Below, one piece after another: positions 15,271-21,976 of a stretch of 64,000 bases of DNA; position 1 is the first letter of the stretch; each line of letters opens with the position of its first letter. The translations under genes were made by a program, and so were the position numbers. Below the pieces are notes generated by a model. That model was given only the letters and a program-made list of their open reading frames with translations. It did no database searches and had not been told where the DNA came from. The DNA is from Mycolicibacterium iranicum. GTDB lineage: Bacteria > Actinomycetota > Actinomycetes > Mycobacteriales > Mycobacteriaceae. The stretch is from contig NZ_LQPC01000020.1 in NCBI RefSeq assembly GCF_002101705.1, forward strand, positions 124,001 to 188,000. Reading direction: 5' to 3'.

Positions 15271-16935
15271 ATGACTGGACTTGAGCACCAGCCCCGCAAA
15301 CCCGTGATCTTGACCGTCGACGACGACCCCGCGGTGTCGCGCGCCGTGGCCCGCGATCTGCGCCGCCACTACGGCGACAAGCACCGCATCGTCCGCGCGG
15401 AATCGGGCCCCGATGCGCTGGAGACGCTGAACGAATTGAAGCTGCGCGGCGAGACGGTCGCGGTGTTCGTCGCCGACTATCGGATGCCGCAGATGAGCGG
15501 CATCGAGTTCCTCGAAGCCGCCATGGACATCTACCCGATGGCCCGCCGCGTCCTGCTGACCGCCTACGCCGACACCCACGCCGCGATCGACGCGATCAAC
15601 GTCGTCGACTTGGACCACTACCTGCTCAAGCCGTGGGATCCGCCCGAGGAGAAGCTCTACCCCGTCATCGACGCGTTGCTGGAGGCGTGGCGCTCCACCG
15701 GGGACCGGGCGATCCCGCACACCAAGATCATCGGGCACCCGTGGAATGCCCGCTCCTCCGAGGTGCGCGAGTTCCTGGCCCGAAACCGCCTGTACTACAC
15801 ATGGTTTCGCTCCGACGAGGCCAAGGGCGCCCAGCTGCTGGAGGCGGCGGGCCTCGATGGGCTGACGCTTCCGGTCATCATCACCGAGCAGGGCGAGACA
15901 ATGGTCGACCCGACCGACGCCGAGCTGGGCGCGACGCTGGGCCTGACCACCACGCCCTCGGACGACTTCTACGACCTCGTCGTCATCGGCGGCGGACCCG
16001 CGGGGTTGGCCGCGGCGGTGTACGGCGCCTCCGAGGGGCTCAAGACCGTGCTGATCGAGCGCACCGCCACCGGCGGGCAGGCCGGGCAGAGCTCCCGCAT
16101 CGAGAACTACCTGGGCTTCCCGGACGGATTGTCGGGAGCACAGCTGGCCGAGCGGGCCCGCAGGCAGGCCGAAAAGTTCGAGGCGGAGCTGATCACCGCC
16201 GCAGAGGTCACCAGGCTCGAGGTCGACGGCAGCGCCCGCACCATCCACCTGTCCGACGGGCGCACGATCGGCACCCGCGCCGTGATCCTCGCGATGGGCG
16301 TCGAGTACCGGCAACTGGAGGCCGAGGGCTGTGACGGACTGACCGGCGCCGGGGTCTACTACGGCGCCACCGCGTCGGTGGCGTCGGACTGCGATGACGA
16401 CGAGGTCTACGTGATCGGCGGCGCGAACTCGGCCGGGCAGGCCGCCATGTATCTGTCGCGCACCGCCAAGAAGGTCAACATCGTCATCCGGCGCACGCTC
16501 GAAGACTCCATGTCGCACTACCTGATCCAGCAGATCAGAGCCACCGACAACATCCAGGAACTGCCGAACACCGTCGTGCACGCGGTCAAAGGCGACGGCC
16601 ACCTCGAAGGCATCTGCCTGGAGAACACCAAGACCGGTGAGCGCCAGGAGCACAACTGCGGACGGATGTTCATCTTCATCGGCGCCGAGCCGCGCACCGA
16701 GTGGCTCGACGGCGTCGTCGTCCGCGACAACCACGGCTTCATCCTGTCCGGGCCGGACCTGCGCGACGTCAGCGGCTGGACGCTGGACCGGCCCCCGCAC
16801 CACCTGGAGTCCAGCGTTCCCGGGGTGTTCGTCGCCGGGGACGTGCGCGCGGAATCCGCCAAGCGGGTGGCCGCGGCGGTCGGCGAGGGCTCGATGGCGG
16901 TGATGCTCGTGCACAGGTACCTGGCCGAGACATGA
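15271..16935 (+). CDS. Response regulator / glutaredoxin-like / thioredoxin-reductase-like flavoprotein fusion without redox cysteines
   Basis: A 554-residue fusion. Residues 10-140 are a CheY-like receiver with acidic D17-D19, phosphoacceptor D69 in [12 protein letters not shown]97 and K120. Residues 150-226 resemble a glutaredoxin fold ([19 protein letters not shown]...LPVIITEQG) with no CxxC. Residues 233-554 are a thioredoxin-reductase-like FAD/NAD(P)H oxidoreductase with GGGPAG (240-245), [18 protein letters not shown], a second dinucleotide motif GGANSAG (383-389) and the C-terminal FAD segment VFVAGDVR. Where TrxR has CATC, this protein has GATA (365-368). I infer a signalling or electron-transfer flavoprotein rather than a disulfide reductase. 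The next gene, a histidine kinase 141 bp downstream, is the likely partner. Related proteins are known to be annotated as fused response regulator/thioredoxin-disulfide reductase; I know of no defined function. Confidence 0.88.
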
Positions 16936-17076: not shown

Positions 17077-18537
17077 ATGGGCGAAAAGTGCCTGCCCGAT
17101 GAACTTCGGACGTTGTTCCTTTTCGAGAAGCTGACCGACGAGCAATTGCAGACGCTGTGCGAGAACGGCCACATCGCGACCTACGAGCCCGGTCCCATCT
17201 GCGCCGAGGGTGACCCGGCCACGTGCTTTTACGTGCTCATCGATGGTGAGCTGGTCATGTCGAAGCGCTCCGGCGGCGTCGACCTCGAGACCAACCGGAC
17301 CTCGCAGCGCGGCGTGTACTGCGGCGCGTGGTCGGCCTACGTTCCCGGCGAGGACAAGACGTATCAGGCGTCGGTGCGGGTCACCCGGCCGTCGAGGTTC
17401 TTCGTGCTCGACGCCGCGGCATTCGCCGAATTCATGCGGAAAGAGTTCCCGATGGCGGTGCACCTGCTGGAGGGCCACATGGTCGGCGGGATGCGGCAGC
17501 GCCAGATCATCGACACCCGGGAGAAGCTGCTCGCCCTCGGCCAGCTGTCGGCGGGTTTGACCCACCAGCTCAACAATCCGGCGGGTGCCACCGCTCGCGC
17601 CGTGGCCGACCTGCGCGAGAGCGTCGGCAAGATGCGGCACAAGCTCGCGATGCTGGCCGACGGCAAGTTCACCCCCGAGGCACTGCGCGTGCTGGTCAGC
17701 ATTCAGGACGAAGTCGCCGAGCAGGTGGCCAAATCGAAGGGCCAGGAGCTCACTGCGCTGGAGACCTCCGACCGCGAGGACCAGATCGGCGACTGGCTCG
17801 AAGACCACGGAATCTCGTCCGCGTGGGACTACGCGCCGACGTTCGTGGAGGCCGGTCTCGACGTCGACTGGCTGGAGCGGGTCGAGGCCTCGGTGGACGA
17901 CGTCGACTGCTCGGCAACGCTGCCCGGAGCGATCGGCTGGCTGAAGTACACGATCGACAACGAGTTGCTGATGAACCAGATCGCCGAAGCCTCCAAGCGC
18001 ATCTCGGCGCTGCTGGCGGGCGCCAAACAGTACTCGCAGATGGACCGCGCGCCCTACCAGAGCGCCGACGTGCACGAGTTGCTGCACAGCACGCTGATGA
18101 TGTTCGGCGACAAGATCGGCAAGAACAACCCGATCAAGCTGGTCAAGGACTGCGACAAGAGCCTTCCCGAATTGCTCTGCTACCCAGGCGATCTCAATCA
18201 GGTCTGGACCAACATCATCGACAACGCGATCCAGGCGATGAACGGTGAGGGCACGCTGACCCTGCGCACCATGCGCGAGAACGAGGACACGATCCGGGTC
18301 GAGATCGAAGACGACGGGCCGGGCATCCCCGAGGACATCATCGAGCGGATCTTCACGCCGTTCTTCACGACCAAACCCTTCGGTGAGGGCACCGGGCTGG
18401 GCTTGGATCTCGCCTGGCGCATCGTCGTCGAGAAACACCACGGCAACCTGTCGGTGCAGTCGCAGCCCGGCCGCACCACGTTCTCGATCTGTCTGCCGCT
18501 GGAGGCGCCCGCCCCGGAGAACTACGTCGCGGAATAG
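17077..18537 (+). CDS. Sensor histidine kinase with N-terminal CNB-like domain
   Basis: A 486-residue soluble kinase. Residues 8-135 have the cyclic-nucleotide-binding (CNB) barrel pattern (LFLFEKLTDEQLQTLCENG, CAEGDPATCFYVLIDGELV), but the phosphate-binding cassette is degenerate (CGAWSAYVPGEDKTYQA). A HisKA-like dimerisation region follows, with H163 in GQLSAGLTHQLNNPAG. An inserted helical region (about 200-330) precedes the HATPase domain with N box (NQVWTNIIDNAIQAM), G1 (DDGPGIPEDI) and G2 (GEGTGLGLDLAW). No membrane segment is seen. ATG 17077 is preceded by AGGAAGG. The likely phosphoacceptor is the receiver domain of the upstream flavoprotein fusion, making an orphan two-component pair with an enzymatic output. 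Confidence 0.87.
   Translation: MGEKCLPDELRTLFLFEKLTDEQLQTLCENGHIATYEPGPICAEGDPATCFYVLIDGELVMSKRSGGVDLETNRTSQRGVYCGAWSAYVPGEDKTYQASVRVTRPSRFFVLDAAAFAEFMRKEFPMAVHLLEGHMVGGMRQRQIIDTREKLLALGQLSAGLTHQLNNPAGATARAVADLRESVGKMRHKLAMLADGKFTPEALRVLVSIQDEVAEQVAKSKGQELTALETSDREDQIGDWLEDHGISSAWDYAPTFVEAGLDVDWLERVEASVDDVDCSATLPGAIGWLKYTIDNELLMNQIAEASKRISALLAGAKQYSQMDRAPYQSADVHELLHSTLMMFGDKIGKNNPIKLVKDCDKSLPELLCYPGDLNQVWTNIIDNAIQAMNGEGTLTLRTMRENEDTIRVEIEDDGPGIPEDIIERIFTPFFTTKPFGEGTGLGLDLAWRIVVEKHHGNLSVQSQPGRTTFSICLPLEAPAPENYVAE

Positions 18538-20336: not shown

Positions 20337-21962
<1,626 letters not shown>

Positions 21963-21976
<14 letters not shown>

Follow-up and report, generated by a model that had tools for sequence, protein, structure and literature searches.

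Family-wide absence of CxxC active sites from a receiver-linked thioredoxin reductase-fold protein of Mycolicibacterium iranicum and its relatives

The 64,000-nucleotide stretch of Mycolicibacterium iranicum DNA considered here (hereafter the window; RefSeq assembly GCF_002101705.1, contig NZ_LQPC01000020.1, positions 124,001 to 188,000) carries a gene whose product joins a CheY-like receiver domain to a glutaredoxin-fold segment and a thioredoxin reductase (TrxR)-fold core. The combination of these three parts with no CxxC active site is a family trait: both of the expected pairs are missing from the window protein and from all of 112 relatives in nine phyla. Dithiol-disulfide reduction by the TrxR mechanism is thus not available to the family, as an earlier note made from the sequence of this DNA alone had proposed for the single protein.

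Results

Lost and conserved sites

Of the fetched loci, 116 matched the protein; 114 rows were kept, and 113 remained when the row of a protein with a fused cyclic nucleotide monophosphate (cNMP) domain (L014) was dropped, comprising the window protein and its 112 relatives. Those relatives that were found by sequence patterns are the best 80 of at least 589 confirmed. The phyla, which we assigned from the titles of the records, are Actinomycetota, Deinococcota, Pseudomonadota, Cyanobacteriota, Acidobacteriota, Chloroflexota, Gemmatimonadota, Verrucomicrobiota and Bacteroidota. When the rows were aligned to the TrxB of the M. iranicum genome, no cysteine was found in any of the four columns of the CATC motif (0/113), which in the window protein is replaced by GATA. 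Residues 156-159, the position of the glutaredoxin CPxC site, are likewise without cysteine (0/113), and neither CPxC nor CPxS was found there in the 113 rows; the glutaredoxin-fold segment of the window protein contains no cysteine at all, while its P201 is invariant in alignments A4 and A5. The earlier note had read both sites as lost, and the alignment of homologues that it proposed as a check bears this out. Loss of the CxxC pair in a single strain is rejected, with no row retaining it, as is a misalignment hiding the cysteines, the six proteins that do have a CxxC pair (L014, L055, L069, L072, L087 and L109) having it off the motif, at residues 328 or 426-427 in their own numbering.

The receiver matches PF00072 with 48.7 bits and has the acid pocket, phospho-acceptor aspartate, Thr/Ser and lysine of a response regulator. 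D17, D18, D69, T97 and K120 are constant in 113 of 113 rows, so that the intact D69, T97 and K120 first noted in the window protein prove to be general. The search patterns included LKPW, and hence K120, together with the flavin stretch NYLGF, and the conservation of these is therefore partly built in for the loci found by pattern; the region of the CATC motif was not in the patterns, and all five receiver residues are also constant in the 34 rows that were not found through them. In the core, GGQAG, NYLGF and NSAGQA are kept nearly without exception. The motifs for flavin adenine dinucleotide (FAD) and NAD(P)H thus remain, as previously claimed, and binding of both cofactors is predicted from these motifs and from the fold.

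Around the lost motif, residue 369, in the column of the second TrxB cysteine, is Thr or Ser in 101 of the 113 rows, and residue 370, in the column of the TrxB aspartate, is acidic (Glu or Asp) in 111; the corresponding pair in the window protein is S and V. The earlier statement that every thiol active site had gone is correct for the two CxxC pairs but overlooked C374, whose column is Cys in 94 rows, Tyr in 14 and another residue in 5. In the alignment C374 lies some five to six residues past the second TrxR cysteine, and in the model it is at the end of helix 368-374, the former active-site helix. A second cysteine-rich column, occupied by T335 in the window protein, has Cys in 59 of 113 rows. 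The TrxR motif HRRxxxR recognises the phosphate of NADPH; only R407 of it is constant in the family, and the position that follows is acidic in 59/113 rows.

Structure model and family scores

The full-chain structure prediction suggested in the earlier note gave an AlphaFold model with a pLDDT of 89.1 and a pTM of 0.75, in which the two-domain FAD/NAD(P)H fold of low-relative-molecular-mass (low-Mr) TrxR and a glutaredoxin/thioredoxin fold are both present. The core of this ligand-free model superimposes with a root mean square deviation of 1.8 on the FR-labelled TrxR 5mh4, compared with 7.6 and 5.4 for the FO-labelled structures 5mjk and 5w4c, and an FR-like arrangement of the two core domains, which would place NAD(P)H on the flavin, is predicted. 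A Foldseek search with the whole model gave its best E-value for AhpF, with a TM-score of 0.38. The protein falls below the cut-offs of three related families, namely TIGR01292 (low-Mr TrxR; 228.2 against 343.45 bits), TIGR03140 (AhpF; 150.3 against 502.9 bits) and TIGR04018 (YpdA/Bdr bacillithiol disulfide reductase; 54.5 against 339.9 bits). A separate, true TrxB is encoded elsewhere in the genome and is 36% identical to the window protein.

The neighbouring histidine kinase

A sensor histidine kinase gene, the predicted partner, begins 141 bases downstream of the flavoprotein gene. Its product has a cNMP-fold input domain and matches PF02518 (HATPase_c) with 91.1 bits, with no Pfam match to HisKA; the phospho-acceptor H163 of the H box and the N-box and G-box residues, N383, D412, G414, G416, G440 and G442, are invariant in seven sequences, that of the window included. 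Of 79 loci from named genomes, 67 have a kinase of the family no more than 1.5 kb away, on either side or strand (64 by tblastn alone); at 55 loci its gene comes next downstream in the same orientation. A four-base overlap of the flavoprotein and kinase genes is seen in Tsukamurella, Streptomyces, Deinococcus and Caballeronia, and is absent from Gloeothece. Neither this kinase nor the UBP-type zinc finger described below entered into the earlier interpretation, which was otherwise sound as to the receiver, the cofactor motifs and the loss of CxxC.

On inspection by eye, the arginine stretch with which cNMP folds usually bind the phosphate seems to be missing from this kinase, and cAMP is therefore a doubtful ligand. 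Among the cyanobacterial receiver-fusion loci, 8 of 26 (L051, L056-L059, L069, L073 and L075) have no such kinase within 3 kb, the sequence of L057 ending 163 bases downstream, so that some of these flavoproteins may answer to a distant kinase. The M. iranicum genome itself has a second kinase of the same family on another contig (L130, a 3.2 kb locus only; G000:C67, around 7527), which likewise has a Cys ahead of its first DELRTVFLF stretch and may be an orphan or a second input to the flavoprotein.

Kinase Cys5 and the M. smegmatis orthologues

The kinase has a cysteine at residue 5. In M. smegmatis the sensor kinase MSMEG_1515 appears, through its Cys5, in a table of residues oxidised by sodium hypochlorite (NaOCl), oxidation rising from 13.1 to 48.5% in wild-type cells and, in an mshC mutant, from 39.2 to 58.3% (PMC5430705). 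The same source gives MSMEG_1520 as rpmJ and MSMEG_1521 as rpsM; in the window, infA and rpmJ flank the flavoprotein gene on the side away from the kinase. Msmeg_1516 was described as a band of about 60 kDa with 36% identity to Rv3913 (PMC7474061). From the gene order (rpmJ, rpsM), the shared Cys5, the size of about 60 kDa and the 36% identity to TrxB, we infer that MSMEG_1516 and MSMEG_1515 are the orthologues of the flavoprotein and its kinase. Msmeg_1516 is co-precipitated by gp145 of mycobacteriophage Wildcat, a toxic protein that causes branched filaments (PMC7474061); MSMEG_1516 further appears in a ClpC1 interactome (PMC10433963) and is listed as under-represented when VapC is overexpressed (PMC10745673).

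All 11 kinases of loci L015-L025, which represent the genus of M. iranicum, its family and one more family of the class, have an N-terminal C-x3-E[LI] motif. This motif was absent from the 14 other loci of Actinomycetota that could be read, three more having given no reading. When a wider set of 66 kinases was considered, 25 had a Cys among the 16 residues that precede the first conserved Phe, some of these cysteines probably lying upstream of the true start.

A UBP-type zinc finger as candidate partner

A gene for a small UBP-type zinc-finger protein (zf-UBP) directly follows the kinase gene in Streptomyces and Tsukamurella. Such a gene is found at 14 of 84 loci with flanking sequence, distributed over Actinomycetota, Deinococcota, Cyanobacteriota, Acidobacteriota, Chloroflexota and Bacteroidota; in Meiothermus (Deinococcota) it is almost 5 kb away. 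In a sample of 296 Actinomycetota genomes, with a strong match defined by E <= 1e-100, zf-UBP is present in 40 of the 51 genomes with a strong match to the flavoprotein and in 28 of the 245 others (odds ratio 28, p 2e-21, by a statistic that ignores shared ancestry). One genome of the 51, G184, matches over residues 151-553 only and may have a receiver-less form; moving it to the others gives 39/50 against 29/246 (p 2e-20). The zf-UBP gene is within 2.5 kb of 13 of the 69 matched genes, and in 11 of these it is about 1.5 kb away, the length of a kinase gene.

The same core with other inputs

Receiver-less relatives, consisting of the glutaredoxin fold and the thiol-less core, are found on plasmids, and several have a directly fused cNMP domain; the cNMP-fused form is 46% identical to the window protein over 409 residues. 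The input fold of the kinase is thus also the input fold of this one-piece form, which supports control of the core by a signal. In plasmid operons of Streptomyces, Rhodococcus and Nocardia (L131, L132 and L140) the order is clpB, thioredoxin, zf-UBP and then the receiver-less core, and the two operon thioredoxins that were read have CGPC or CAPC together with extra N-terminal CxxC pairs. Over the 11 annotated receiver-less plasmid loci (L014, L131-L135 and L138-L142; L136 and L137 lack annotation and are outside this count), five have an annotated zf-UBP neighbour and four a Clp ATPase; some receiver-less loci have no clpB, thioredoxin or zf-UBP neighbours. The clpB/thioredoxin/zf-UBP operons hint at a link to protein quality control. 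A review of prokaryotic RING/UBP zinc fingers may deal with operons of this kind. In Gloeocapsa (L134, 2203-3438) a plain core lies behind a gene annotated with a thioredoxin domain and a DsbA-family gene.

In a tree of 38 core rows, from which five rows failing a motif cut were left out, the two TrxB-type rows fall outside the set made up of receiver, cNMP and plain forms, and their branches are long. The receiver fusion requires three changes on this tree, though it may have arisen once.

Features and other genes of the window

Table 1. Positions of the flavoprotein, its kinase and the related zinc-finger gene (window numbering unless a contig is given)
Feature	Position	Strand	Remarks
Receiver / glutaredoxin-fold / thiol-less TrxR-fold protein	15271..16935	+	554 aa, 60.3 kDa
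Receiver domain, residues 12-142 of the model	15304..15696	+	Pfam PF00072, alignment, model
D69, predicted phosphorylation site	15475..15477	+	Alignment, 113/113
Glutaredoxin-fold segment, residues 146-229	15706..15957	+	
TrxR-fold FAD/NAD(P)H core, residues 232-554	15964..16932	+	
FAD ADP-binding GGGPAGL stretch, residues 238-246	15982..16008	+	Sequence; conserved
GATA, residues 365-368	16363..16374	+	Coincides with the columns of the lost CATC or precedes them by one residue
C374, sole conserved cysteine	16390..16392	+	Alignment
NAD(P)H dinucleotide motif, residues 383-392	16417..16446	+	Alignment
cNMP-fold / HATPase_c sensor histidine kinase, predicted partner	17077..18537	+	486 aa, Pfam
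Kinase Cys5	17089..17091	+	MSMEG_1515 has its hypochlorite-sensitive cysteine at this residue number
zf-UBP gene of M. iranicum, the only one found (L124)	G000:C30, 19224-19430		

A luciferase-like monooxygenase gene (PF00296, 18713-19576) follows directly after the kinase gene on the same strand. Further on, at 20352-21976, is an ordinary gene pair of sugar-nucleotide dehydratase and dTDP-4-dehydrorhamnose 3,5-epimerase types. Rfam and tRNA scans of the window gave no matches; a promoter scan found none, and two terminator-like elements were found where 1.9 are expected.

Discussion

What, then, might a phosphorylatable protein with this core do once its thiols are gone? The reading that we favour, tentatively and at somewhat less than an even chance, is that the receiver, phosphorylated by the kinase, switches a direct transfer of electrons from the flavin to an acceptor other than a disulfide. 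The adjacent kinase would sense stress, in the mycobacterial branch perhaps thiol oxidative stress, and would then phosphorylate D69; the phosphorylated receiver would shift the arrangement of the glutaredoxin fold and the core; and FAD reduced by NAD(P)H would hand its electrons directly to the acceptor, which may be one brought by the zf-UBP protein. The thiol-less glutaredoxin fold could serve as a docking module, and the zf-UBP protein as an adaptor or target that ties the enzyme to protein quality control. Direct hand-over by the reduced flavin is suggested because most relatives have Thr or Ser for the flavin-side cysteine, with the acid next to it retained as Glu.

Several observations weigh against this proposal or parts of it. 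With HRRxxxR reduced to the single R407, either NADH or NADPH could be the donor. C374, present in 94 of the 113 rows and absent from 19, could be catalytic. In the model, residues 278-282 of the flavin domain have a pLDDT below 50, the pTM is 0.75, and the FR-like state comes from a ligand-free prediction of this protein alone. The kinase was not found within 3 kb at 11 of the 79 loci, two of which have less than 1.5 kb of sequence downstream. Cys5 is unstarred in Table 2 of the M. smegmatis study, unlike many other apparently conserved residues (PMC5430705), and the motif around it is missing from many branches, so that redox input through Cys5 would be no more than a branch-specific trait. 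The association with zf-UBP, besides taking no account of ancestry, has exceptions in both directions, 28 genomes having zf-UBP without a strong match, eight of them with a core homologue that matches less strongly (E 1e-76 to 1e-100), and 11 having a strong match without zf-UBP; in M. iranicum itself the zf-UBP gene is on another contig, unlinked to the flavoprotein. The widespread two-component pathway that might be drawn from all these elements, in which a stress kinase acts on a thiol-free NAD(P)H:flavin reductase with a zf-UBP adaptor that leads to protein quality control, redox catalysis being the output and the flavoprotein a target of at least one mycobacteriophage toxin, is accordingly put forward as speculative and, taken whole, unlikely.

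Could the core instead be a sensor? In that case the flavin core would read the reducing state of the cell, or NAD(P)H, and by a change of shape would tune phosphorylation or dephosphorylation of the receiver, or its binding to other proteins, with no meaningful turnover. The loss of the catalytic thiols in every row while the cofactor motifs are kept is what would be expected of a sensor pseudo-enzyme, the acceptor required for an enzyme is not known, and both the co-precipitation with the phage toxin and the ClpC1 interactome listing speak for contacts between the inferred orthologue and other proteins. The nucleotide and flavin motif residues are nevertheless very strictly kept, and the existence of a form with the cNMP domain in cis, and of forms with neither receiver nor cNMP domain, suggests a core able to function with no receiver attached. 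We regard the sensor as an unlikely explanation.

Less probable again is a single-thiol reductase, in which C374 would take electrons from the flavin side or form mixed disulfides with thioredoxin, mycothiol or the zinc-finger protein. In favour of this are the wide conservation of C374, with which the former active-site helix ends, and the position of core relatives next to CGPC or CAPC thioredoxins and a DsbA-family gene. Against it are the tyrosine or other residue found in place of C374 in the remaining rows, and the location of C374 past the last CATC column, so that the alignment does not make it a substitute for either CxxC cysteine.

It is improbable, to a still greater degree, that the protein is simply one of the TrxR-like ferredoxin/flavodoxin-NADP reductases (FNRs) that lack CxxC, extended by a receiver and with ferredoxin or flavodoxin as its acceptor. 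These enzymes, among them FNR1 and FNR2 of B. cereus, do share the TrxR fold without CxxC, and direct electron transfer from flavin to acceptor is a feature of the known members. They are grouped by an FAD-stacking residue (His/Val/Tyr/Phe; PMC10294844), and the C-terminal extension that bears it was not found in the window protein, whose last residue, 554, aligns with FNR residues 319-322, before H326 and V329; nor do they have its receiver and kinase partner.

An ordinary TrxR with misaligned or misread cysteines, as the name thioredoxin reductase given to many members in databases would imply, is scarcely credible, being refuted at the sequence level by the absence of motif cysteines from all 113 rows and disfavoured by the TIGR01292 score (228 against a cut-off of 343) and by the true TrxB elsewhere in the genome.

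Most two-component outputs regulate genes or second messengers. An output with a flavoenzyme fold, its thiols lost and its cofactor motifs kept across nine phyla, would extend phosphorelay control to electron flow. The present analysis also connects scattered reports on MSMEG_1515 and MSMEG_1516 of M. smegmatis, and it proposes a candidate partner for the UBP zinc fingers of bacteria.

How does the family relate to what has been described? The earlier note held a flavoenzyme as output to be unusual, which was overstated, the architecture being neither rare nor unnamed: the census of Galperin et al. 2018 calls the REC-thioredoxin reductase fusion a 'Mycobacterium-like combination' and records the same domain combination in two Heimdallarchaeota, although the passages concerned do not mention cysteine loss, partner genes or function (PMC5847659). 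One UniRef name begins 'Fused response regulator/thior'. Among the matches listed from the open-licence full-text literature, subscription papers being outside it, there was no functional study of the receiver fusion and no description of the zf-UBP link or of family-wide thiol loss in the fusion; a term search in passages of a review of Deinococcus thiol reductases gave no mention of the family.

Of the enzymes with which the window protein can be compared, low-Mr TrxR (TrxB, TIGR01292) has the same two-domain FAD/NAD(P)H fold, with 27-36% identity in the core and the FR-type arrangement seen in the model; the window protein differs in its lack of CxxC, its receiver and glutaredoxin-fold domains and its score below the family cut-off. 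AhpF resembles it in carrying a thioredoxin-fold N-terminal part on a TrxR-fold core, but has a double thioredoxin fold and keeps its CxxC pairs, and the window protein is below the TIGR03140 cut-off. The cNMP-domain TrxR-like proteins, finally, share the glutaredoxin fold, the thiol-less core and the zf-UBP neighbours, and differ in that a cNMP-fold domain takes the place of the receiver and in that some of them belong to operons with clpB and trxA.
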